This document shows, in pieces, positions 2,301-33,177 of a DNA stretch of 64,000 nucleotides. A model generated the notes under the pieces. It searched no databases, had not been told where the DNA came from, and was given only the letters and a program-made list of their open reading frames with translations. The stretch's first letter is position 1. Each line of letters begins with the position of its first letter. The translations under genes were made by a program, and so were the position numbers. Source of the stretch: Burkholderia metallica (GTDB lineage Bacteria; Pseudomonadota; Gammaproteobacteria; Burkholderiales; Burkholderiaceae); the NCBI RefSeq assembly GCF_902832845.1, contig NZ_CADFDB010000009.1, forward strand, positions 1 to 64,000, in the 5' to 3' direction.

Positions 2301-4235
2301 CTACTTCCGCGCGCCGCGCAACTCGGTGACCGCAGCCTGCAGCGCGTCGGGCGTCGCGACCGACGCCGGGATCGGCTCGCCGACGGCAAGCGTCAGCCGG
2401 CTCATCGCGCCGCGCTTGATGGGGCGCGGCATCCGCGCATCGGAATGCCGCGAGAAATAGCTGCCCCACAGCCCGCGCAGCGCCATCGGAATCACCGGCG
2501 CCGGCGTGCGGGTCAGGATCTCCGTGATGCCGTGGTGGAACGTGTTGATGTCGCCGGTTTTCGTCAGCTTCCCTTCGGGGAAGATGCACACGAGTTCGCC
2601 GTCCTTCAGCGCCGCCTCGCAGGCGTCGTACGCCCGCGCGAGCATCGCGGGATCCTCGTGACGCGGCGCGATCGGGATGGCCTTCGCATGCCGGAACACC
2701 CAGCTCGCGAAGCGTGTCTTGAAGATCCGGTGATCCATCACGAAGCGGATCGGCCGCGGACTCGCGGCGGCCAGCACCAGCGCATCGACGTAGCTGACGT
2801 GGTTGCACACGAGCACGGCCGCCCCTTGCGCCGGAATCCGCTCCGCGTGTACGAGGCGAATCCGGTAGAAGGTGTGCACGAGCACCCAAGCGACGAAGCG
2901 CAGCAGGAACTCGGGCACGAGCAGATAGATATACGCGGCGACGATCACGTTCAGCAGCGCCGTGACGAGGAACAGGCCCGGGATATCGACGCCGGCCTTC
3001 GTCAGCCCCATCGCCATCACGGCCGACAGGATCATGAACAGCGCGTTCAGGATGTTGTTCGCGGCGATGATCCGCGCGCGGTGCGTCGGCGCGCTGCGGC
3101 TCTGGATCAGCGCGTACAGCGGCACGCTGTAGAAGCCGCCGAACATCGCGAGCAGGAACAGGTCCGCGAGGATGCGCCAGTGGCGCGCGCCGGCCAGGAA
3201 TTCGCCGACCGACAGCAGATGGCCGGGCGACGGCAGCGCGTGGCTCGCGAAGTACAGCTCGATCGCGAACACGCTGATGCCGATCGAGCCGAGCGGCACG
3301 AGGCCGATCTCGACGCGCCGCTGCGACAACCGTTCGCACAGCAAAGAACCGAGGCCGATGCCGACTGAGAACGTCGCGAGCAGGATCGTGACGACGTCGG
3401 GGCTCGCGGACAGCACGTCCTTCGCGAAATTGAAGAACGACGTGAGGAACGTCGCACCGACGAACCACAGCCACGAGATGCCGAGCAGACTCAGGAACAC
3501 GGTGCGGTTCTGGCGCGCGAGCCCGAGGTTGCGCCATGTTTCGCTGACCGGATTCCAGTTGATCACGAGGTCGGGCTGCGGCGCCGGCGTCGACGGCACG
3601 CGCTGCGCGACCAGGCGCCCCGCGAGCGCGATGACGACGACGCTCACCGCGAGCACGCGCTCGCCATTGCCCTCGATCCCCGCGGCCGCGCCGCCGATGA
3701 TCGTGCCGATCAGGATCGCGATGAACGTGCCCATCTCGACGAGGCCGTTGCCGCCGACCAGCTCATGCTCGGCGAGATGCTGCGGCAGGTACGAATACTT
3801 GACGGGCCCGAACAGCGTCGAGTGCATCCCCATCATGAACGTGCACAGATACAGCAGCGCGGCGCTGTGCGTGACGAAGCCGGCGGCGCCGACCAGCATC
3901 AACACGATTTCGAAGGTCTTCACGAAACGCGTGAGGGTCGCCTTGTCGTACTTGTCGGCGATCTGGCCGGAGGTGGCCGAGAACAGCACGAACGGCAGGA
4001 TGAAGATCGCGGAAATCAGGAAGGCCGCCGTCTTCGCATCGACGCCGGCGAACCGCGCGGTGTGATAGGTGACGAGCGACGTGAAGCCGATCTTGAAGAC
4101 GTTGTCGTTCAGCGCGCCGAGGAACTGGGTCGTGAAGAACGGCGCGAAACGGCGCTCGCGCAGCAGGTCGAACTGCGATGCGTGGGCGCGCGGGTCGCCA
4201 CGCCGCCCGGAAGTGACTTGCGTTTGATCGCTCAT
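2301..4235 (-). CDS. MFS transporter fused to 1-acylglycerol-phosphate acyltransferase (LplT-PlsC type)
   Basis: A 644-residue two-domain membrane protein. Residues about 20-410 are a twelve-helix MFS module resembling the lysophospholipid flippase LplT (QFLGALNDNVFKIGF near the N-terminus). Residues about 430-640 are a PlsC acyltransferase with the HX4D motif (NHVSYVD) and the FPEGKLTKTGD block for glycerol-phosphate binding. The likely job is flipping lysophospholipid inward and re-acylating it, that is, phospholipid repair. In E. coli the flippase (LplT) and the acyltransferase/acyl-ACP synthetase (Aas) are separate proteins; here flippase and acyltransferase are fused and no AMP-binding acyl-ACP synthetase domain follows. 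The start is MSDQTQ at 4235; an upstream frame extension has no family similarity. Function is inferred from the domains. Confidence 0.88.
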   Translation of the reverse strand: MSDQTQVTSGRRGDPRAHASQFDLLRERRFAPFFTTQFLGALNDNVFKIGFTSLVTYHTARFAGVDAKTAAFLISAIFILPFVLFSATSGQIADKYDKATLTRFVKTFEIVLMLVGAAGFVTHSAALLYLCTFMMGMHSTLFGPVKYSYLPQHLAEHELVGGNGLVEMGTFIAILIGTIIGGAAAGIEGNGERVLAVSVVVIALAGRLVAQRVPSTPAPQPDLVINWNPVSETWRNLGLARQNRTVFLSLLGISWLWFVGATFLTSFFNFAKDVLSASPDVVTILLATFSVGIGLGSLLCERLSQRRVEIGLVPLGSIGISVFAIELYFASHALPSPGHLLSVGEFLAGARHWRILADLFLLAMFGGFYSVPLYALIQSRSAPTHRARIIAANNILNALFMILSAVMAMGLTKAGVDIPGLFLVTALLNVIVAAYIYLLVPEFLLRFVAWVLVHTFYRIRLVHAERIPAQGAAVLVCNHVSYVDALVLAAASPRPIRFVMDHRIFKTRFASWVFRHAKAIPIAPRHEDPAMLARAYDACEAALKDGELVCIFPEGKLTKTGDINTFHHGITEILTRTPAPVIPMALRGLWGSYFSRHSDARMPRPIKRGAMSRLTLAVGEPIPASVATPDALQAAVTELRGARK

Positions 4236-4374: not shown

Positions 4375-4830
4375 TCACGACTTGTGCGCTTCGGCTTCCG
4401 ATTCCGGCCAGTCGCGGATGTACGCCTTCAGCATCCGGTTCTCGAAGCTCTGCGCCTCGACGACCGTCTTCGCGACGTCGTAGAACGAAATGACGCCCAT
4501 CAGCACCTTCTTGTCGAGCACCGGCATGTAGCGCGCATGGCGCTCGAGCATCATCCGGCGCACTTCGTTGACGTCGGTTTCCGGCGTGCACGTGAGCGGC
4601 TCGTCCATCACCTTGCGCACCTGCACGTCGCCGATCGCGCCGCCGTTTTCGCGCAGGCGCAGGATGATCTCGCGGAACGTGAGCATCCCGACGAGATCGC
4701 CGTACTCCATCACGACGAGCGAACCGATGTCGTGCTCTGCCATCGTATCGACCGCTTCGCGCAGCGGCTTATCGGGCGTCACGGTAAACAGCGTGTTGCC
4801 CTTCACTTTCAGAATATCGCTGACGCGCAT
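4375..4830 (-). CDS. Tandem CBS-domain protein
   Basis: A 151-residue cytoplasmic protein made almost entirely of two CBS motifs (first about residues 8-65, second about 75-130; KVKGNTLFTVTPDKPLREAV and VRKVMDEPLTCTPETDVNEV open the two repeats). Stand-alone CBS pairs bind adenosine nucleotides and act as small regulatory modules; the partner is not evident here. The ATG at 4830 is chosen because the conserved MRVSDILKVKG start follows a GAGGGG ribosome-binding site at proper spacing. A TTGACA hexamer lies upstream on the minus strand (4884-4889), but the -10 at the right distance is poor. Known only at domain level. Confidence 0.88.
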   Translation of the reverse strand: MRVSDILKVKGNTLFTVTPDKPLREAVDTMAEHDIGSLVVMEYGDLVGMLTFREIILRLRENGGAIGDVQVRKVMDEPLTCTPETDVNEVRRMMLERHARYMPVLDKKVLMGVISFYDVAKTVVEAQSFENRMLKAYIRDWPESEAEAHKS

Positions 4831-4988
4831 CGTAGTCCCCTCATGCTTGAATGCAAAACCTCTTTCGATCCTATCGGAAAGCCTGTCAAAAGGAAAGCGC
4901 GGGCCCGCGCGGCGGGCCGCGCCCCGCTTGCGGAAGCGGTCTGCCGGCCGCACAATGGCCCCGTGAACCGCGGCCGGAGGAGACGTCC

Positions 4989-5306
4989 ATGGCGCATACG
5001 CATTCGGAGCAATTCGCCAGCTTCGCCGATTTCTACCCGTATTACCTGAACGAACACCAGAACCTGACGTCGCGACGGCTGCACTTCATCGGCTCGCTCG
5101 GCGTGATCGGCTGCGTCGCGATGGCGATCGCGACCGGCCACTGGCTGTGGCTGCCGGCGGCGATCGTCTGCGGCTATGGGTTCGCATGGGTCGGACACTT
5201 CTTCTTCGAGAAGAACCGCCCGGCCACGTTCCGGCACCCGATCTACAGCCTGATGGGCGACTGGGTAATGTTCAAGGACATTTGCACGGGAAAAATCCCG
5301 CTGTAA
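4989..5306 (+). CDS. Mpo1-like (DUF962) membrane protein
   Basis: A 105-residue protein with the DUF962/Mpo1 hallmarks: NEHQNLTSRRLHFIG near residue 20, two hydrophobic segments (about 36-75), and GHFFFEKNRPATFRHPIYS with further conserved histidines. Yeast Mpo1 is an Fe(II)-dependent dioxygenase in alpha-oxidation of 2-hydroxy fatty acids; bacterial members are thought to be similar, but the substrate in this organism is unknown. The ATG at 4989 follows a GGAGGA ribosome-binding site; the reading frame is open further upstream, without conserved sequence. It is divergent from the CBS gene with 158 bases between. Confidence 0.85.
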   Translation: MAHTHSEQFASFADFYPYYLNEHQNLTSRRLHFIGSLGVIGCVAMAIATGHWLWLPAAIVCGYGFAWVGHFFFEKNRPATFRHPIYSLMGDWVMFKDICTGKIPL

Positions 5307-5322
5307 CGGCCGGCCGCCCCGC

Positions 5323-6654
5323 TCACGCGGGCCGCGGCGGCCGCGCCTGCGGGTCGGACACGCCGCCCGGCGCCTGCCCCGGGGCACCCGCCGGCTGCGC
5401 GCCGGCCACGCGGTGCGCGGCGATCAGCGTCGCGAGCGACACGTCGAAGCGCTCGCTCGACAGCACCGCGAGCAGCGCGCCGCCGTCGACGTGGCTGCGG
5501 CGGCGCTGCAACTGGTAGGTGAGCTCGGTGCGGTCGATCACCAGCACGTCGAACAGTTGCGCAAGCGTCAACTGCTCCGGATTCGCGAGCAGGATGTAGC
5601 GCGGCGTGGTCTCGCCGCCGCCGTCGAGCCGCGCAATCCACTCCCGCTCCTCCATCGTCGTCAGCAGGCGCTGCGCGGTTTCCATGTCGCAGCGCAACAT
5701 GGTCGCGAGCCGCATCGCCGTGTAGCCGCGCTTGCCGGCCGTGCGCGCGTCGGTGAGCCGCGCGAGCATTTCCAGCGCGTCGAGCAGGTCGCTGCCCGGA
5801 TAGTGGATGCGGTGGAACTGGCCGACGCGGATCGCCGGCAGCGCGGAGGCCACCATCGCACCGAGCAGCGCGATGAACCAGCTCAGATACACCCAGAGCA
5901 GGAACACCGGGAGCGCCGCGAACGCGCCGTAGACGGCCGTATAGGTCGGAATGCGACGCACGTAGTAGCCGAAGCCGCGCTTCGCGAGTTCGAACGCGAC
6001 GGCCGCGAACAGCCCGCCGATCACGGCGTCGCGCCATGCGACCGTGCAGTTCGGCAGGTACACGTACAGCAGCGTGAACGCGAGCACCGTCAGCGGCAGC
6101 GACGCGAGCGCGAGCAGCCACTCGACGATCGACGTCGACGGTGCGGCGCCGGTGAACGCCAGCGACTGCGTAAACAGGTACGACGAGATCGACAGGCTCA
6201 CGCCGAACAGCAGCGGGCCGAGCGTGATCAGCGCCCAGTACGCGAGCACGCGCTGTGCGAACGGCCGCGGCTTGCGCACGCGCCAGATCAGGTTGAATGC
6301 CGACTCGATCGTCATCATCGTCATCACGGACGTGACGACGAGCACGATCAGGCCGGCCGTCGTCAGCCCCTTCGCCTTCGACGCGAACTGGTTCAGGTAC
6401 TTGAAGATCTGGATGTTGAACTGCGCGGGCATCAGGTGATCGGCCAGGAACCCCTGCAGCGAGATCTGGAACGACGCGAACATCGGGAACGCGGTGAACA
6501 GCGCGAACGCGACCGTCACGAGCGGCACGAGCGCCAGCATCGTCGTAAACGTCAGGCTGCCCGCCACTTGCGGAATGCGATCCTCGGCGCTGCGCCGGGC
6601 CGCGAACTGCGCGAGGCGCTTGATGGTGTCGAGATCCACGCTCAACTTCGGCAA
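5323..6654 (-). CDS. YihY/BrkB family inner-membrane protein (UPF0761 type), TTG start
   Basis: A 443-residue protein with about six membrane segments over residues 25-290 and a cytoplasmic C-terminal extension of roughly 150 residues that looks like a winged-helix-like region (AMRLATMLRCDMETAQRLL). The family was once called ribonuclease BN, a label since withdrawn; its molecular role is unsettled. The start is a TTG at 6654 giving MPKLSVDLDTIKRLAQF: AAGGAG sits seven bases upstream and no ATG or GTG fits. The stop is 16 bases from that of the convergent Mpo1-like gene. The tail beginning about residue 400 is rich in Ala, Gly and Pro. Confidence 0.88.
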   Translation of the reverse strand: MPKLSVDLDTIKRLAQFAARRSAEDRIPQVAGSLTFTTMLALVPLVTVAFALFTAFPMFASFQISLQGFLADHLMPAQFNIQIFKYLNQFASKAKGLTTAGLIVLVVTSVMTMMTIESAFNLIWRVRKPRPFAQRVLAYWALITLGPLLFGVSLSISSYLFTQSLAFTGAAPSTSIVEWLLALASLPLTVLAFTLLYVYLPNCTVAWRDAVIGGLFAAVAFELAKRGFGYYVRRIPTYTAVYGAFAALPVFLLWVYLSWFIALLGAMVASALPAIRVGQFHRIHYPGSDLLDALEMLARLTDARTAGKRGYTAMRLATMLRCDMETAQRLLTTMEEREWIARLDGGGETTPRYILLANPEQLTLAQLFDVLVIDRTELTYQLQRRRSHVDGGALLAVLSSERFDVSLATLIAAHRVAGAQPAGAPGQAPGGVSDPQARPPRPA

Positions 6655-6725
6655 ACGACTTCTCCTTCGTGATACCGCGCGCCTGGAGGCGCGCCGCCGT
6701 CGCGCTGCGCGACGGCTTCAGCCCC

Positions 6726-6731
6726 TATAAT
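6726..6731 (+). promoter_or_regulatory. Candidate -10 element for the wrbA operon
   Basis: TATAAT matches the consensus exactly, about 70 bases upstream of the wrbA start, in the gap between wrbA and the divergent YihY gene. The overlapping sequence also reads TATTAT on the minus strand. No convincing -35 is visible. Confidence 0.4.
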
Positions 6732-6733
6732 AG

Positions 6734-7809
<1,076 letters not shown>

Positions 7810-7830
7810 CCCTTACGCGACAAGGTGATG

Positions 7831-9249
7831 ATGTCTTCCGAAGCTTTCGTTTCCGCGTGCCGCGACGCGATCGGCGCCGACTATGTGCTGACCGATCCGC
7901 ACGATACCGAACCGTTCCTGACCGACTGGCGCCGCCGCTACAAGGGCGCGGCGTGCGCGGTGCTGAAGCCGGCGAACACGGCCGAAGTCGCCGCGCTCGT
8001 CAGGCTGGCCAATGCACACGGCATCGCGCTCGTGCCGCAAGGCGGCAACACGGGCCTAGCCGGCGGCGCCACGCCCGACGCGAGCGGCAGCCAGGCCGTG
8101 CTGAGCGCCGCGCGGCTGAACCGCGTGCGTGCACTCGATCCGCACAACAACACGATCACCGTCGAAGCCGGCGTGATCCTCGCCGACGTGCAGGCACGCG
8201 CCCGCGAAGGCGGCCGGCTGTTCGCGCTGAGCCTCGCGGCGGAAGGCAGCTGCACGATCGGCGGCAACCTGTCGACCAATGCGGGCGGGACCGCGGTGCT
8301 GCGCTACGGCAATGCGCGCGAGCTGTGCCTCGGGCTCGAGGTGGTGACGCCGCAGGGAGAGATTTGGGACGGACTGCGCGGACTGCGCAAGGACAACACC
8401 GGCTACGATCTGCGCGACCTGTTCATCGGCGCGGAAGGCACGCTCGGGATCATCACGGCGGCCGTGATGAAGCTGCACCCGCTGCCGGCCGCGCAGGTCA
8501 CCGCCCTCGCCGCGCTCGAATCGCCGCACGCGGCGCTCGATTTCCTCGCCCTCGCGCAGCGCGCGGCCGGGCCGCTGCTGACCGGCTTCGAGCTGATGTC
8601 GGACTTCTGCATGCAGCTGGTCGGCAAGCATTACCCGCAACTGCGCTACCCGTTCGCGCAAGCGCATGCGCAGACGGTGCTGCTCGAACTGTCCGACAAC
8701 GAAAGCGAAGCGCATGCGCGCGCGCTGTTCGAGAAACTGATGGAAGAAGCGTTCGAGGCCGGGCTCGTGATCGACGCGGTGGTCGCGGAGAACCTCGCGC
8801 AGTCGCGCGCGTTCTGGGACCTGCGCGAGCACATCCCGCTCGCGCAGGCCGACGAGGGGCTGAACATCAAGCACGACATCGCAGTGCCGATTTCGTCGAT
8901 CGCGCGCTTCATCGACGAGACCGACGCGGCGATCCAGCAGGCCGCGCCGGGCGCGCGAATGGTGACGTTCGGCCACCTCGGCGACGGCAATCTCCACTAC
9001 AACGTGCAGATGCCCGAAGGCGGCGACCCGAAGGCGTTCCTGGCCGCGTTCCAGGCGCCGATCAACCGGATCGTCTACGACAACGTGCATCGCCATCACG
9101 GCACGATCAGCGCGGAGCACGGGATCGGGCAGCTGAAGATCGACGACGCGCAGCGTTACAAGTCGCCGGTGGAAACGACGCTGATGCGCACGCTGAAGAC
9201 CGCACTCGACCCGCGCGGCCTGATGAATCCCGGCAAGGTCCTGCGCTGA
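7831..9249 (+). CDS. FAD-linked D-2-hydroxyacid dehydrogenase (D-2-hydroxyglutarate/D-lactate dehydrogenase family)
   Basis: A 472-residue flavoenzyme of the VAO/PCMH fold that oxidises a D-2-hydroxy acid to the keto acid. The FAD-binding domain (about residues 40-220) shows VPQGGNTGLAGGATPD and GTLGIIT; the C-terminal FAD-oxidase domain carries the metal/substrate histidines in FGHLGDGNLHYNV and EHGIGQLK. The substrate cannot be told from sequence: closest in feel are D-2-hydroxyglutarate dehydrogenases, but glycolate or D-lactate enzymes share these motifs. Three starts are stacked (GTG 7825, ATG 7828, ATG 7831); AAGG at 7822-7825 is best placed for 7831. It begins 21 bases after the DUF2069 gene and may be co-transcribed with it. 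Confidence 0.9.
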   Translation: MSSEAFVSACRDAIGADYVLTDPHDTEPFLTDWRRRYKGAACAVLKPANTAEVAALVRLANAHGIALVPQGGNTGLAGGATPDASGSQAVLSAARLNRVRALDPHNNTITVEAGVILADVQARAREGGRLFALSLAAEGSCTIGGNLSTNAGGTAVLRYGNARELCLGLEVVTPQGEIWDGLRGLRKDNTGYDLRDLFIGAEGTLGIITAAVMKLHPLPAAQVTALAALESPHAALDFLALAQRAAGPLLTGFELMSDFCMQLVGKHYPQLRYPFAQAHAQTVLLELSDNESEAHARALFEKLMEEAFEAGLVIDAVVAENLAQSRAFWDLREHIPLAQADEGLNIKHDIAVPISSIARFIDETDAAIQQAAPGARMVTFGHLGDGNLHYNVQMPEGGDPKAFLAAFQAPINRIVYDNVHRHHGTISAEHGIGQLKIDDAQRYKSPVETTLMRTLKTALDPRGLMNPGKVLR

Positions 9250-27134: not shown

Positions 27135-27752
27135 TCAGCGCGCGTCGGCCGGCTTCACCAAGACGACGCCCGGCATTGCGCCCGCGTCGTCTTTTTTCGT
27201 CTTGACGAGCCAACCGCCGCCTTCGCCGAACGGCACCTTCGCGAGCGCGCTCTTCACGAGCGCCGGCGCGGCCTGTTGCGTGCCGGGATCGCGATCTCGC
27301 AGCGCAGCCGACACGCGGTAGACGTCGGCGCCCGATTTCGCGTCGACGAAGCGCAGCGTCAGCACATGGCGGTACACGCGCCCCATGAACGGCAGAGGGA
27401 GCGGCGCCGGGCCGTCGACCGTCACGCACGCGCTGCTCGCGGCGCCACACCCGGCAGCGCTTGCCGCGACCGACGCCGGCTGCGTCGCATACGCGATCGA
27501 CAGCCGGTAGCGCGCGGCCGGGAGCGGTTTCACATCGAAGCCGCGGTGCGCGAGTTCGTCGCGCACGAGCGCCTCGATCTGCCGGTATTCGGCGTCGCCC
27601 GCCTGCGCGGCCGTGCGCACGATGTCGTAGCCGTGCGCGTCGGACGCGAACGCGTTCGGCTGCCCGATCGCGCTCACGCCGCTCGTCACGCCGCCGGCGC
27701 AACCCGTCAACAGCGACACCGCCAGCGCGGCCGCTGCCCATTCCTTTCTCAT
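27135..27752 (-). CDS. Putative DUF4136-like lipoprotein
   Basis: A 205-residue exported protein whose signal peptide ends in a lipobox (SLLTGC, Cys about residue 18). The mature part resembles small DUF4136-type lipoproteins (RTAAQAGDAEYRQIEALV, DELAHRGFDVKP, YRLSIAYAT), including two extra cysteines in GCGAASSACVTVDG that could form a disulphide. Function unknown. It is 37 bases downstream of the CHASE2 kinase gene on the same strand and is probably the last gene of that signalling operon, or an outer-membrane output or partner of it. The start at 27752 gives the best signal sequence (MRKEWAAAALAVSLLTGC). Confidence 0.75.
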   Translation of the reverse strand: MRKEWAAAALAVSLLTGCAGGVTSGVSAIGQPNAFASDAHGYDIVRTAAQAGDAEYRQIEALVRDELAHRGFDVKPLPAARYRLSIAYATQPASVAASAAGCGAASSACVTVDGPAPLPLPFMGRVYRHVLTLRFVDAKSGADVYRVSAALRDRDPGTQQAAPALVKSALAKVPFGEGGGWLVKTKKDDAGAMPGVVLVKPADAR

Positions 27753-27789
27753 GGCTTTCCCCAAATGCCTGCCGTCGCGCCCGGCCCTG

Positions 27790-30177
27790 TCAGGCGGACG
27801 GCTCGTCCATCGCGGGCAGCGACACCGTCACCGCGGTGCCGACACCCACCTCGCTGTCGACCGACACGCTGCCCCCATGGCGCGTGACGACCGTCTTCAC
27901 GAATGCCATGCCAAGCCCGGAACCCGAGATTTCGGGCCGCTCGCCGGCATGGAACCGCTTGAAGCGCTCGAACAGATGCCGCTGATCTTCCGGCGCAATG
28001 CCGTATCCCTGATCGCGAATCGTACAGAACATCCGTTTCGATGCGTGCTCGACCGCCAGCGTACACGTGATCACGGTATCGGATGGACTGTATTTGACCG
28101 CGTTGTTCAACAGGTTCACGAACGCGCGCGTGAGCAGCGAGCGGTCCGCGCGTACCCAGCACATCCCGGTGCCGACGTCGGTGTCGATGCGGATGTGCTT
28201 CGCCTGCGCCTGCGGCCATACCTCGTCGCTCGCATCGATCAGCACGTCGACGAAGCTCGTCGTCTCGAGCTGGTATGCCTGCGACTCGGCGCGCGCCAGC
28301 TGCACGAACTCGTCGGCCAGCGACAGCGCACGGTGCGCATAGCGCTCGATCCGCGCGAGCAGCCCGCGCATCGCGTCGGTCTCGGCGCGGTCGCGCTCGA
28401 TCTCGACGAGCGCGAGAATCGACGACTGCGGCGAGCGCATGTCGTGCGACAGCAGGTGCAGCGCTTCCTCGCGCTGCCGCTCCGCCGCGTGCAGTTCGGT
28501 CACGTCGACGAGGCCGGCGATCCAGCCCGTCACGCGGCCCTGCGCGTTCGTGCAAGCCGCGTAGCGTAACAGATGGTCGAGCCCATCGCGATCGCGCACC
28601 TCGATGCCGCGCGCCATCGCGTCGTGTTCGGCCTCGAGCGTCGGGTCGAGCGCGGCCGGCCAGTGTTCGCGGATCGCCGCATCGTGGTCGGCGTTGCCGT
28701 CGACGGTCTTCATGAACGTCAGCTCGCCGAGCGCGGTGCGCAGCGGCCGCCCTTCCGGCAGCGGCAGCGCGAGACGCGACCCGTAGCGCTTGGCCGCATG
28801 GTTCGCGATCAGCACGGTGCCGGCCAGGTCGGTCACGAAGATCGGCTCCGGCATGCTGTCGAGGCTGTCCCACACGAAGCGCTTCATGTCCTGCACGCGC
28901 TGCGCGGCTTGCGCCATCAGCGCCATCTGCCGCTCGAGCACGTCGCCGCCGACGTTGCGCGTGCGCGGCGCCTCCGGCAGCAGGTGCGGCTCGTCGGCGA
29001 GCCGCTGCAGCTCGCGGCGCAGGTACGACATCGTCATTTCCAGGCGCCGCCAGTTCCAGATCGGGTAGACGGCGATCAGCCCGAAGATCGCGGGCGCCGG
29101 CGACAGCCAGATGCGCGCCTCGACCAGCAGCGCGAGGCTCGCGACGACGGCGAGCGCGGCGAGGCTCAGCGTCAGCAGCAGCGCGCGCCACGGCGACAGC
29201 ATCAGGAAGCCGCCCAGCAGCACGGCGAGCGGCAGCAGCGACGCGGCGAACAGGCCGGCGCCCGACGCAGGCGAGATCGCGCTGCCGGTGGCCAGCATGT
29301 CGAGCACGTTCGCATGGATATAGACGCCGGCGAGCGGCCCGAACTCGCCGGACACAGGCGTCGCGAAGCGGTCGTACAGCCCCGATGCGGTCACGCCGAC
29401 GACGACGATCTTGCCGCGCAGCGCATCGGGCTTCACGCGCCCTTCGAGCACGTCGTCGAACGACAGCGTCGGATAGGCGGGCGTGTTGCGGCTGAACGGG
29501 ATCAGGTAGCGGCCCTCGCCGTTCGCGTCGCGCGACAGGTCGTGCGCGTGGGCGCCGGGCACGCCGCCGACCGGATGCAGCCGGCCGGCCTGGATCGCGC
29601 GGTACACGGGCACCATCAGTTGCGGCCAGCGCACGCGGCCGTCGCTTTCGAACAGCGCAACGCTGCGAACGATGCCGTCGGGGTCGACTTCGAGGTTGAT
29701 GTGACCGAGCCCGACCGCGCGCGCCGCGAGCGCGGCCACCGGCGGATCGACCACGCGCGAGCCGTCCGCCTGTTCGGGGCTCAGCAGCACGGGCAGGAAG
29801 GTCGGCACGCGGCTCATCGCGTCCGCGAACGCGCGATCCTCCGGCGACGGTTCCGTAAACAGTACGTCGTAGACGACGGCGGCCGGCTGCGCGCGCGCCA
29901 GCGTGTCGAGCAGCCGCGCATGCACGTCGCGCGACCACGGCCAGCGGCCGAGCGCGGACACGCTCTGGTTGTCGATGTCGACGACGACCACGTCGGGCGA
30001 CAGCGGCAGGCTGCGCAGCATCAGCAGCCGGTCGTAGATCAGGCCGTCGACGCTCGCCGACAGGCGGCCGAGCGCGCACGCGAGAATCACCGCGATCCCG
30101 AGGCAGCCGATCGCGATCCATTCGATCAGGAAGCGGCGGCCGAGATGCCGCCGCGGGGATACGGAGTCGGGTTTCAT
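27790..30177 (-). CDS. CHASE2-domain sensor histidine kinase
   Basis: A 795-residue inner-membrane kinase. After a first membrane helix (about 20-40) a periplasmic CHASE2 domain spans about 40-310 (SPDVVVVDIDNQSVSALGRW, PAAVVYDVLFTEPSPEDRAF). Three further helices (about 315-390) return it to the cytoplasm. A PAS-like region (about 445-560; MPEPIFVTDLAGTVLIANHA) precedes the kinase core: H-box LLSHDMRSPQSS with His578, N-box NLLNNAVKYSP, G1 DQGYGIAPED and G2 GSGLGMAFVKT. All catalytic boxes are intact. It is the third gene after an OmpR-type regulator and a LysM/FecR protein (10 bases away), so these form one signalling unit. CHASE2 ligands are unknown. Confidence 0.92.
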   Translation of the reverse strand: MKPDSVSPRRHLGRRFLIEWIAIGCLGIAVILACALGRLSASVDGLIYDRLLMLRSLPLSPDVVVVDIDNQSVSALGRWPWSRDVHARLLDTLARAQPAAVVYDVLFTEPSPEDRAFADAMSRVPTFLPVLLSPEQADGSRVVDPPVAALAARAVGLGHINLEVDPDGIVRSVALFESDGRVRWPQLMVPVYRAIQAGRLHPVGGVPGAHAHDLSRDANGEGRYLIPFSRNTPAYPTLSFDDVLEGRVKPDALRGKIVVVGVTASGLYDRFATPVSGEFGPLAGVYIHANVLDMLATGSAISPASGAGLFAASLLPLAVLLGGFLMLSPWRALLLTLSLAALAVVASLALLVEARIWLSPAPAIFGLIAVYPIWNWRRLEMTMSYLRRELQRLADEPHLLPEAPRTRNVGGDVLERQMALMAQAAQRVQDMKRFVWDSLDSMPEPIFVTDLAGTVLIANHAAKRYGSRLALPLPEGRPLRTALGELTFMKTVDGNADHDAAIREHWPAALDPTLEAEHDAMARGIEVRDRDGLDHLLRYAACTNAQGRVTGWIAGLVDVTELHAAERQREEALHLLSHDMRSPQSSILALVEIERDRAETDAMRGLLARIERYAHRALSLADEFVQLARAESQAYQLETTSFVDVLIDASDEVWPQAQAKHIRIDTDVGTGMCWVRADRSLLTRAFVNLLNNAVKYSPSDTVITCTLAVEHASKRMFCTIRDQGYGIAPEDQRHLFERFKRFHAGERPEISGSGLGMAFVKTVVTRHGGSVSVDSEVGVGTAVTVSLPAMDEPSA

Positions 30178-30187
30178 GCGCCGCGGA

Positions 30188-31570
30188 TCAGCGCGACAGC
30201 GTAAACGCGCCGACCGGACTGGTCTTCTCGTAGAACTTGCCGCCTTCGAACTCCTCGACGGTCACGGCCCAGAAATAGTCGCCCGGCGGCAGGTGCGCGA
30301 CGGTGATCTGACGCGCATGCAGGCCAACCTGGTCGACGACCGGCGCACTCAGGTCCTTCGAGCGCGACAGCACGAACCGGTAGCGCGCGCCCTTGCCCGC
30401 GCCGTTCGGCGACCAGCGGAACTCGTAGCCGCCCGCGCCGGGCGACGCGCTCGCGTCGAGCCCCATCGCGCGGCGTTCGAACGCGTACGTGCGCGGCTGG
30501 CCCTCGAGGCCGTTCGCGTCGATCGCGGCGACCCGCACGAAGTAGTTTCCGTTCGGCACGTTGCGGAACACCGCGCGCGGCGAATCGGTACGCGTTTCGC
30601 GGAACAGGTCGAGCAGCCCCGCGTCGTGCGCGAGCTGCACGCGGTACGCATGCGCCTGTTCAAGCGGCGCGACGTCGAACGTGACGTCGGGCTCGTCCTG
30701 CACCTTGTCGGGATGCGCAAGCGCCGGTGCGGGCAGCAGCTCGACGGGCGCGCCGACCGCGCCGGACGCCGTCGCGACGCTGCCGAAATTCGCATGCACG
30801 AGCGTCGGGGTGGCCGACTGGCGGCCGCCCGCGACGCCGACGGTGCCGTCGAGCACTTCGACGCGCGTCGACGCCGTGCCGGCCGCGTCGTAGTTCACGC
30901 GAAAGCGCGTGCCGCGCACGCCGGCCACGACCGACGGCGAACGGATCTGGAAGCGGTCGTCGCGCTTCTTCAGGTGGGTGACCTCGCTTTCGACCGAGCC
31001 GCGCGTGAGTTCGAACTCCCGATCGAGCGTGCCGGTCAGCACCGTGCGGCGCAGCGACTTCAGGTCGAGCTGACTGTCCGGCGGCAGGCTCATGTGCGTG
31101 CCGTCGGACAGTTCGAGCGTCACGAAGCCGTTCGGGCCCGTGCGTACGCGATCGCCCTCGGCGAGCGTCGCATCGCTCGCGAGCGGCGAGAAGACATTGC
31201 CGGCGACATTATTGCCGGACGCGCGTTCGGCCGCGCCCTGCACCGCGACGACGCGCGCGGTCAGCTTTTCCTTGCGCAGCCGCGCCACCGGCAGCTTCAG
31301 CGCGATGCCGGGCTGCAGGCGCTTCGGCGCAGGCACGCCGTTGATCTGCTGAAGCAGTTGCCAATCGTCCGTGCCTTGCAGGTAGCGTGCGGCGATGTCG
31401 TACAGCGTGTCGCCCGCGTGCGTGCGATACACGACCATCTTGCCTGCTGCCGCGGCCGCCGGCGGCTGCGCGGCCGCATGCTGCGCGGCGAACGCAAACG
31501 CGGCCACGCAGACGGCGCGCAGCGCGGCCGTGCGCAGGTTCGCCGCGCGCTGCATGATGTGCCGGGTCAC
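30188..31570 (-). CDS. Periplasmic LysM-FecR domain protein
   Basis: A 460-residue exported protein. A signal peptide (residues about 6-32, cleavage after QHAAAQ) is followed by a LysM peptidoglycan-binding domain (about 40-92; YRTHAGDTLYDIAARYLQG), a FecR domain (about 95-250; GDRVRTGPNGFVTLELSDGT and SPSVVAGVRGTRFRVNY) and fibronectin-like repeats to the end. It probably sits on the cell wall and communicates with the CHASE2 kinase encoded next to it. The GTG at 31570 overlaps the regulator stop (GTGA) and is the likeliest start; an ATG at 31555, five codons in, is the alternative. Between two signalling genes with almost no spacing. Confidence 0.88.
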   Translation of the reverse strand: MTRHIMQRAANLRTAALRAVCVAAFAFAAQHAAAQPPAAAAAGKMVVYRTHAGDTLYDIAARYLQGTDDWQLLQQINGVPAPKRLQPGIALKLPVARLRKEKLTARVVAVQGAAERASGNNVAGNVFSPLASDATLAEGDRVRTGPNGFVTLELSDGTHMSLPPDSQLDLKSLRRTVLTGTLDREFELTRGSVESEVTHLKKRDDRFQIRSPSVVAGVRGTRFRVNYDAAGTASTRVEVLDGTVGVAGGRQSATPTLVHANFGSVATASGAVGAPVELLPAPALAHPDKVQDEPDVTFDVAPLEQAHAYRVQLAHDAGLLDLFRETRTDSPRAVFRNVPNGNYFVRVAAIDANGLEGQPRTYAFERRAMGLDASASPGAGGYEFRWSPNGAGKGARYRFVLSRSKDLSAPVVDQVGLHARQITVAHLPPGDYFWAVTVEEFEGGKFYEKTSPVGAFTLSR

Positions 31571-32271
31571 TCCGGTTCTCCCTGGCCGACCCGTTCGAGC
31601 CGGTAGCCGTAGCCGTAGATCGGCGCGAGGCGATAGCCGTTTTCGGGCCGCAGGCCGAGCTTGGTGCGCAGCATCGAGATATGCGTATCCATCGTGCGCG
31701 ACGGGATGTCGGTCGCCTGCTTCCACACGAGATCGAGAATATGGGCGCGCGACAGCGGCCGGTCGAGGTGCTGGAACAGCAGCAGCGCGAGCTCGAATTC
31801 CTTCTGCGTGAGGCTCACGGCCTTGTCGCCGACGTAGGCCTGCTTCAGGTTTACGTCGAAACGGAACTGATCGAATTCGCGAACGGTGGCCTCGGCGTTG
31901 ACCGGATACGCGCGGCGCAGCAGCGAGCCGATGCGCGCGCGCAGGATCGGGCCCGACACGGGCTTGACCACGTAGTCGTCGGCGCCGGCGTTGAGGATCT
32001 GCGTGATCCCCGCCTCGTCGTCGCGGCTCGTCATGAAGATGATCGGCAGGCTGTGCTCGGTCTGATTGGCACGCACCCACTTCAGCACTTCCTCGCCGGA
32101 CATGTCGGGCACGTTCCAGTCGAGGACCAGCAGATCGAACGTCTCGCGCTGCAGACGCTTCTTCAGGGCCTTGCCTTCCTTGAACGCATAGCACGTGTGG
32201 CCAACGGCCGTCAGCGTTTGACTGACGAAATCCGTCTGGGCCGGATCGTCATCCAGTACAGCAATTCTCAT
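31567..32271 (-). CDS. OmpR/PhoB-family response regulator
   Basis: A 234-residue DNA-binding regulator. The receiver domain (1-120) has the acidic pocket LDDD at 6-9, phospho-acceptor Asp51 (LVLDWNVPDMSG), the switch Thr (FMTSRD) and Lys (VVKPVSG). The winged-helix output domain (about 135-230) shows LTQKEFELALLLFQHLDRPL, SRTMDTHISMLRTKLGL and YGYGYRLE. It heads the operon with FecR-LysM, CHASE2 kinase and lipoprotein genes and is the obvious partner of that kinase. The start is MRIAVLDDD at 32271 with GGGG upstream. Confidence 0.93.
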   Translation of the reverse strand: MRIAVLDDDPAQTDFVSQTLTAVGHTCYAFKEGKALKKRLQRETFDLLVLDWNVPDMSGEEVLKWVRANQTEHSLPIIFMTSRDDEAGITQILNAGADDYVVKPVSGPILRARIGSLLRRAYPVNAEATVREFDQFRFDVNLKQAYVGDKAVSLTQKEFELALLLFQHLDRPLSRAHILDLVWKQATDIPSRTMDTHISMLRTKLGLRPENGYRLAPIYGYGYRLERVGQGEPE

Positions 32272-32457
32272 AGCACCCCGCAAATCGAAATCGATTCGTC
32301 CAGTTCAGCTCTCCGCCTTCATCCAGCCGCGCGACACGTGTGCGGCGGCGTCCGGATATCGGCCGTCGAGCCGTCGTTCGCCGCTCGCGCCACCTGCGCA
32401 AACCAGCGACCCCGGCCAAGCATCTCAAAAACGGGGCACGGACGAACCGGCGATTTC

Positions 32458-32485
32458 ATCATAGTAGTATGAAATTCGCCAACAA
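32458..32485 (-). promoter_or_regulatory. Candidate sigma-70 promoter for the response-regulator operon
   Basis: On the minus strand: -35 TTGTTG (32485-32480), 16-base spacer, -10 TATGAT (32463-32458). Transcription would start near 32451, giving a leader of about 180 bases before the regulator gene. The whole 32272-32542 gap has no supportable gene. Confidence 0.55.
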
Positions 32486-32542: not shown

Positions 32543-32965
32543 CTAGTCGACGCGCGCCACGCCCGTCGCCGGCTCGGCGACATCGTCGGCCGGCACGTGC
32601 GGTGACAGCCGCTCCGGACGCGCCGGTTGTGCCAGCATCCGCTGCAACTGCCCGCGCACACGCTCCCACGCGGTGGCCGCGTAGTCCGGCTGGCTCGTCG
32701 CCCACGCGTGCGCCAGATCGAACACGCGCTCGATCGTCGCACCGCAGTAAGTCGGGCCCGAGCCCTCGCGCTGCGCGGCATCGCGCAGCCGTTCGTCGAG
32801 CCACTCGGCCAGCCACGGCATCTCGGCCGCGGCGGAATCCGCGTACGCCTCCAGCGCGGCACGCGCGTGGCGATCCTGTTGTGGGTCGAGCTCGATACGG
32901 CTCAGCCCCGATACGCTGCGTTCCGCTTCGGACGGACTTCGAATGGTCCCTGGTCTGAAGGACAT
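32543..32965 (-). CDS. Conserved-looking hypothetical cytoplasmic protein
   Basis: A 140-residue acidic, helix-rich protein with no signal peptide or membrane segment (MSFRPGTIRSPSEAERSVS at the start; EMPWLAEWLDERLRDAA in the middle). No family recognised. A good ribosome-binding site (GGGGAGAGGA) supports the ATG at 32965 over the longer frame. It stands alone: a 271-base gap separates it from the response-regulator operon, and TusA lies 212 bases upstream. Confidence 0.6.
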   Translation of the reverse strand: MSFRPGTIRSPSEAERSVSGLSRIELDPQQDRHARAALEAYADSAAAEMPWLAEWLDERLRDAAQREGSGPTYCGATIERVFDLAHAWATSQPDYAATAWERVRGQLQRMLAQPARPERLSPHVPADDVAEPATGVARVD

Positions 32966-33177
32966 GTCCTCTCCCCGTTGTACGACGGTAGCGCCAGGCA
33001 TGGCCCCCGTGCCCGCCGTACGACGTACCGTGACCGGCGCATCCGCTGGGAGCGGACGACCGGCCGGGTCAGTATACGCAGGCGGTCGCGAAGCGAGGTT
33101 TAAGAATTGTCAGAGAAGCGTGGCCGGCGCGGCGCGGCCGTACGGCGCCCGGGCGGCCGGCACCGCGAGGCGCGCCG

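Follow-up and report, generated by a model that had tools for sequence, protein, structure and literature searches.

FecR proteins encoded beside CHASE2 sensors, and a LysM-FecR/CHASE2 kinase operon of Burkholderia metallica

The window analysed here, a 64,000-nucleotide stretch of Burkholderia metallica DNA (positions 1–64000 of contig C9, NZ_CADFDB010000009.1, from a searched genome of 7.55 Mb), carries four tightly packed minus-strand genes for a response regulator, a protein with LysM and FecR domains, a CHASE2 histidine kinase and a DUF4136 lipoprotein. In surveying the neighbourhoods of CHASE2 genes, we found that their pairing with FecR genes is strong, linked to CHASE2 and independent of the type of output. 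The locus itself is already known: its orthologue in Burkholderia contaminans was published as the BiofilmReg operon. New are the measurement of this pairing, which follows CHASE2 whatever the output, and the placing of LysM-FecR as an input of the type of NsrA of Sinorhizobium meliloti, but tethered to the wall. By analogy, the locus looks like such an NsrA-type input wired to a two-component system. Published systems are described from the passages of each cited paper that the literature search covered, and in these passages a generalised FecR–CHASE2 pairing was not found.

Of 120 Pseudomonadota genomes sampled, 81 had CHASE2 and 72 of these also had a FecR match, the FecR matches being listed in full. 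Among the CHASE2 matches listed, which were taken best first and represent 74 of those 81 genomes, 60 of 150 places lay within 6 kb of a FecR gene, against ∼1.7 expected by chance (all chance expectations assume genomes of 3.5 Mb); the co-occurrence in gene neighbourhoods that the initial annotation had looked to as a check on its circuit was thus borne out. The FecR gene was upstream on the same strand and no more than 2.5 kb away in 37 of the 60 pairs, placed likewise but further away in nine, and downstream on the same strand in three. The pairing recurred when 80 genomes from the same order as B. metallica were sampled as well; here, among the matches listed, CHASE2 was found in 58 genomes and FecR in 54, and at least 35 of 144 CHASE2 places were near FecR, against ∼1.5 expected (144 of the 150 listed were used; two below the cut-off and four fragments were dropped). 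The two samples have at least G000, G019, G102 and G106 in common.

Two controls were run in 47 genomes of the Pseudomonadota sample. Of 127 listed cyclases that had no listed CHASE2 at 6 kb or less, none had FecR at such a distance, the closest FecR lying at 7.6 kb; two cyclases located 1.5–6 kb from CHASE2, both no more than 6 kb from FecR, were set aside. The same count for dCache was 0 of 150 listed matches (nearest 6.3 kb), and an earlier run on 122 of the 150 (those of at least 46.0 bits, second copies per frame left out) also gave zero. Since these genomes had been chosen mainly for holding pairs, the pairing rate of 60/106 within them is biased and only the zeros are used; these tie the FecR link to CHASE2 and not to cyclases or to dCache, a common class of periplasmic sensors. 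The Pfam output domains of the 60 linked CHASE2 proteins, some of which have several, comprise 36 cyclase, 11 HATPase_c, six GGDEF, four EAL, four HD and one SpoIIE. Their 60 partners carry FecR by selection, and all 59 pairs beyond the window were read individually. LysM was present in six partners. LysM-FecR partners are encoded beside kinases (the window, L099 and L119), a GGDEF protein (L112, L113) or a GGDEF-EAL protein (L114). In L112, L113 and L114, LysM-FecR is encoded directly upstream of CHASE2 cyclic di-GMP (c-di-GMP) enzymes, the type of input being that of the window; in L139 (4057–8409) a CHASE2 cyclase adjoins a 1450-aa FecR protein that carries bacterial cadherin-like repeats. 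Over the 59 pairs, FecR distances correlated with CHASE2 distances (rho 0.48, compared with a maximum of 0.17 in 2000 shuffles; the species tree was not corrected for).

The NsrA–CyaK pair of S. meliloti offers, by analogy, a precedent from genetics for a FecR protein that acts on a CHASE2 protein. In strain ml28, nsrA lies directly upstream of cyaK with one base in common, and NsrA has a FecR domain at residues 66–160 (Pfam, 2.3e-15), whilst CyaK joins CHASE2 to a cyclase. Signal 1 occurs in shoots and is transduced by CyaK, and its perception requires both NsrA and CyaK (PMC7529298). As in the window, a FecR-domain gene adjoins a CHASE2 gene. NsrA, however, has TPRs and no LysM match and is described in the literature covered as an outer-membrane beta-barrel, whereas the B. 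metallica protein has LysM; similarly, CyaK is a cyclase and the CHASE2 protein of the window is a kinase. The FecR partner in L135 and NsrA share 56% identity. Grouping of the two genes has also been reported for the Campylobacterota, where clusters of CHASE2 adenylate cyclase, FecR and TPR genes were proposed to form one pathway (PMC9239204); these differ from the window in their cyclase output, their phosphodiesterase and their phylum. The same paper, citing the NsrA work, gives as a working model that extracytoplasmic function (ECF) modules inhibit the transmembrane cyclic AMP enzyme. From these clusters and this model it follows that the idea of FecR acting on CHASE2 is in print for cyclases, and that the sign of the action may be inhibitory. 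PA4035–PA4036 of Pseudomonas aeruginosa, as described in PMC5192318, encode a FecR protein and then a CHASE2 kinase, as in the window, but with a truncated LysM and with two genes instead of four.

The LysM-FecR protein of the window contains LysM at residues 52–94 (Pfam, 5.3e-6) and FecR at 140–244 (1.1e-19), with Ig-like matches below the cut-off in its C-terminal half and an N-terminus that, judged by eye and not by a predictor, resembles a signal peptide. In a PDB sequence search, all matches up to E 0.004 fell on the LysM part; a further four, at E 0.1 to 0.96 and located elsewhere or on LysM, look like chance. From this domain content the protein is probably attached to the cell wall through LysM. 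The FecR domain in itself could point to classical FecI-FecR surface signalling, in which a FecR protein regulates a sigma factor, and the initial annotation had drawn on this anti-sigma role. What we found departs from it: the Pfam scan gave no match to DUF4880, which we take to be the N-terminal anti-sigma segment, hydropathy gave no membrane helix, and no sigma gene emerged when the four genes of the operon and three adjoining ones were scanned with Pfam. Because of these three results we class LysM-FecR, from its sequence features, as not of the anti-sigma type and as unlike the FecI-FecR-FecA systems with which it has the FecR domain in common. The genome offers a direct comparison, as it holds two FecR matches, one being the LysM-FecR protein next to the kinase and the other (L165, 1906–3726) a classical DUF4880-FecR protein encoded next to an ECF sigma gene. 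Furthermore, DUF4880 was matched at E ≤ 0.001 in none of the 60 CHASE2-linked FecR proteins. We therefore hold FecI-FecR signalling through this protein to be very improbable.

The identities that the initial annotation had given to the four genes were upheld by Pfam, with signal peptide and lipobox judged by eye. The kinase matches CHASE2 (2.6e-57) and HATPase_c (4.3e-24) strongly, whilst HisKA (22.9 of 26.9 bits) and PAS_4 (21.4 of 23.1 bits) remain below their curated cut-offs; the domains are laid out as CHASE2 28–305, PAS 439–563, HisKA 569–632 and HATPase 678–789, with one hydrophobic helix at 16–34 and a hydrophobic block at 309–352. A full set of catalytic boxes had been claimed, and a script located H, N, G1, F and G2, beginning at residues 577, 688, 722, 736 and 752. 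It is the sole CHASE2 match in the genome. A PDB sequence search with the CHASE2 part returned a single match, at E 0.71. Among the matches listed, its closest named relatives (up to 96% identity) are from the Burkholderia cepacia complex and related species. The regulator matches Response_reg (1.5e-22) and Trans_reg_C (1.3e-17), its best NCBIfam model being PhoB, below cut-off (155.8 of 296.2 bits), and the script placed its phosphorelay residues at Asp 51 and Lys 103 of the receiver. The signature residues of a two-component pair, the kinase H, N and G boxes and the regulator Asp and Lys, are accordingly present, and the common operon suggests that the kinase phosphorylates this regulator as its cognate partner.

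An operon of B. contaminans GIMC4509 (KP288492) was named BiofilmReg in 2016 after one of 1000 plasposon insertion mutants, hit in the regulator gene, had lost the ability to form biofilm (PMC5192318). By the account in the paper, BiofilmReg contains LysM, FecR, CHASE2, PAS and DUF4136 domains, its LysM-FecR protein is modelled on peptidoglycan and its CHASE2 domain in the periplasm, and the insertion is taken by the authors to have halted transcription of the entire operon. The window agrees with it in gene order, in domains, in the start of LysM-FecR inside the regulator gene, in the 10-base gap to the kinase and in the localization proposed for the proteins; the gap between kinase and lipoprotein is 27 bases in that strain as opposed to 37 in ours. 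The two models part where the paper has its FecR protein (PBP) and its kinase (HK) sense different signals, whereas we propose that FecR acts on CHASE2. BCAL1443 of Burkholderia cenocepacia is given there as the orthologue of the regulator (PMC5192318), a name not found elsewhere in the literature searched. The operon can thus no longer be put forward as a new candidate, as the initial annotation had done, for the operon was already in print, as was a model much like the one drawn for it. That interpretation was a reasonable one which is now better supported than the sequence alone could tell, although largely anticipated, and on balance we regard it as partly supported.

Conservation was assessed in 80 Burkholderiaceae loci, the best among 128 related stretches that a search with the kinase had given. 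All four genes were present, in the same order, in 66 of the 80 loci, and 12 others had regulator, FecR and kinase without the lipoprotein, so that these three are kept in 78; L043, with a split FecR, is one of the 12. A relative of the lipoprotein was present in 67; as it was counted only when an open reading frame (ORF) of ≥ 120 aa matched at E ≤ 1e-3, the number of absences is an upper bound. In L043 (a P. madseniana record, 2416–3955) FecR is split over two frames and there is no true fusion. L038 (a P. franconis record, 4528–8427) holds regulator and kinase; its FecR frame shifts into that of the kinase, and the apparent FecR–kinase fusion was dropped as a frame shift in that record. In L075 and L081 the long kinase ORFs extend upstream in a frame other than that of FecR. 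In L067 (P. kururiensis, ∼4900–9150) kinase and lipoprotein are kept, a naturally occurring separation of the kinase from its partner.

We consider it fairly probable, somewhat beyond an even chance, that the locus is an envelope-sensing two-component operon in which a wall-held LysM-FecR protein acts on the CHASE2 kinase, with biofilm genes among the output of the regulator. The LysM-FecR protein would be exported and tethered to peptidoglycan by LysM, its FecR domain would act on the CHASE2 domain in the periplasm, and this would alter how far the OmpR-type regulator is phosphorylated, biofilm genes being part of its presumed output. The mode would resemble that of NsrA–CyaK, with a wall-tethered input in place of the beta-barrel and a kinase in place of the cyclase. 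A circuit from a wall FecR protein through CHASE2 to the regulator had been drawn in the initial annotation, and it has since gained the co-occurrence and the NsrA–CyaK precedent; FecR–CHASE2 contact, wall binding by LysM and the direction and sign of control are still what we infer. Several observations weigh against this reading. FecR is encoded on the opposite strand in 11 of the 60 pairs, and 90 of the 150 CHASE2 genes among the matches listed have no FecR within 6 kb. When 21 such FecR-less CHASE2 genes (19 loci) were searched with a sensitive profile at E ≤ 0.1, 20 had no FecR-like ORF in their flanks and the remaining one, in L160, had a FecR-like ORF ∼3 kb away, from which we conclude that FecR is not obligatory for CHASE2; 20 of the proteins so searched comprise 15 cyclases, two protein kinases, one histidine kinase and two without a tallied output domain. 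The distance correlation drops to 0.20 among distant pairs, again without species-tree correction, and no natural FecR–CHASE2 fusion occurred in the 59 FecR-adjacent loci (ORFs ≥ 120 aa). L067 has no regulator or FecR within 6 kb upstream. Moreover, the BiofilmReg insertion cannot separate the roles of the genes, since on its authors' reading the whole operon ceased to be transcribed, and the FecR protein SMc02177 of S. meliloti is dispensable for perception of the shoot signal (PMC5498481).

This last result bears on a different explanation, that FecR is a downstream or parallel effector: CHASE2 would sense a ligand of its own and LysM-FecR would be a co-regulated wall protein within the response. 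SMc02177 is a Clr target gene whose mutant has a hyper-infection phenotype in spite of its dispensability for signal perception (PMC5498481), and within the literature covered it was the sole direct test found of such a FecR protein. By locus tag it adjoins SMc02176, the CHASE2 cyclase CyaD1. The test may however have missed the CyaD1 pair, because shoot extract was used and shoot signal 1 is transduced by CyaK. Signalling by CyaK requires NsrA, itself a FecR protein, as an upstream component, and the FecR linkage tracks CHASE2 and not the type of output; we rate an effector role as unlikely. FecR could instead be a structural or folding partner that positions the CHASE2 protein at the wall and carries no signal. 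Linkage and co-inheritance would then appear identical, and LysM suggests anchoring, but CHASE2 proteins without FecR neighbours exist and the partners differ widely outside FecR (LysM, TPR, Ig-like, cadherin-like), a diversity that suits varied inputs. A purely structural role appears improbable to us.

The features of the operon are collected in Table 1. The coordinates of the four minus-strand genes, the GTGA overlap and the gaps of 10–37 bases were confirmed: the GTG start of LysM-FecR lies inside the regulator gene and overlaps its stop, 10 bases separate LysM-FecR from the kinase, and 37 bases separate the kinase from the lipoprotein if the ATG is used. This packing suggests that the four genes form one co-transcribed unit. 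The lipoprotein match to DUF4136 (1.1e-7) is barely over the cut-off (32.9 of 32.8 bits), and a role for this protein in the circuit is presumed from its place in the operon. Convergent with the operon, a downstream plus-strand gene encodes a nucleotidyl transferase (Pfam), presumably galU. A 152-aa ORF at 32543–33001 lies upstream of the operon on the same (minus) strand; it gave nothing over the Pfam cut-off and no NCBIfam match.

Table 1. Features of the operon and its upstream region in the window
Feature	Coordinates	Strand	Evidence
OmpR/PhoB-type response regulator, 234 aa, receiver and winged helix	31567..32271	-	Pfam
Exported LysM-FecR protein (predicted), 460 aa	30188..31570	-	Pfam, hydropathy
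CHASE2-PAS histidine kinase, 795 aa	27790..30177	-	Pfam, hydropathy, catalytic boxes
DUF4136 lipoprotein, 205 aa, lipobox LLTGC (by eye)	27135..27752	-	Pfam
Inverted repeat TTTCA-N11-TGAAA with TACTAT -10-like hexamer, 21 bases	32454..32474	-	Cross-locus conservation

The inverted repeat belongs to a block conserved upstream of the operon in the Burkholderia loci L002–L034, in which TTTCATACTACTATNNTGAAA is followed by ∼35 bases ending in TTTTTGAGAT. Over these 33 loci the repeat has no mismatch in 28, one in three, three in one and six in one, whilst 45 other loci have 6–10 mismatches, compared with a background of 7–11. It is the single match in the genome at ≤ 3 mismatches and, with no second copy, no regulon is proposed. 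Given its position and conservation, the repeat is a probable candidate for the promoter or operator of the operon. BiofilmReg is described with a single far-upstream promoter and a long 5′ leader (PMC5192318). In the window a scan with the sigma-70 consensus gave no promoter match, but the conserved repeat sits 183–203 bases before the regulator start. A terminator scan gave one terminator-like match, inside the kinase gene, with shuffles giving more, and an Rfam search gave no match.

More broadly, exported FecR proteins without an anti-sigma segment may be dedicated input partners of a large subset of CHASE2 proteins, forming a portable module used by kinases, cyclases and c-di-GMP enzymes, a proposal that we regard as evenly poised. 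If FecR proteins do partner many CHASE2 sensors, the question becomes testable by binding and deletion experiments on named pairs. If true, the remainder of each FecR protein, be it LysM, TPR-barrel, Ig-like or cadherin-like, would set what is sensed, the input being the cell wall in the Burkholderia operon and the outer surface in NsrA. This would also account for the position of the gene for a wall-binding protein between those of a regulator and its kinase, and it suggests a link from the state of the cell wall to biofilm formation in the Burkholderia operon.

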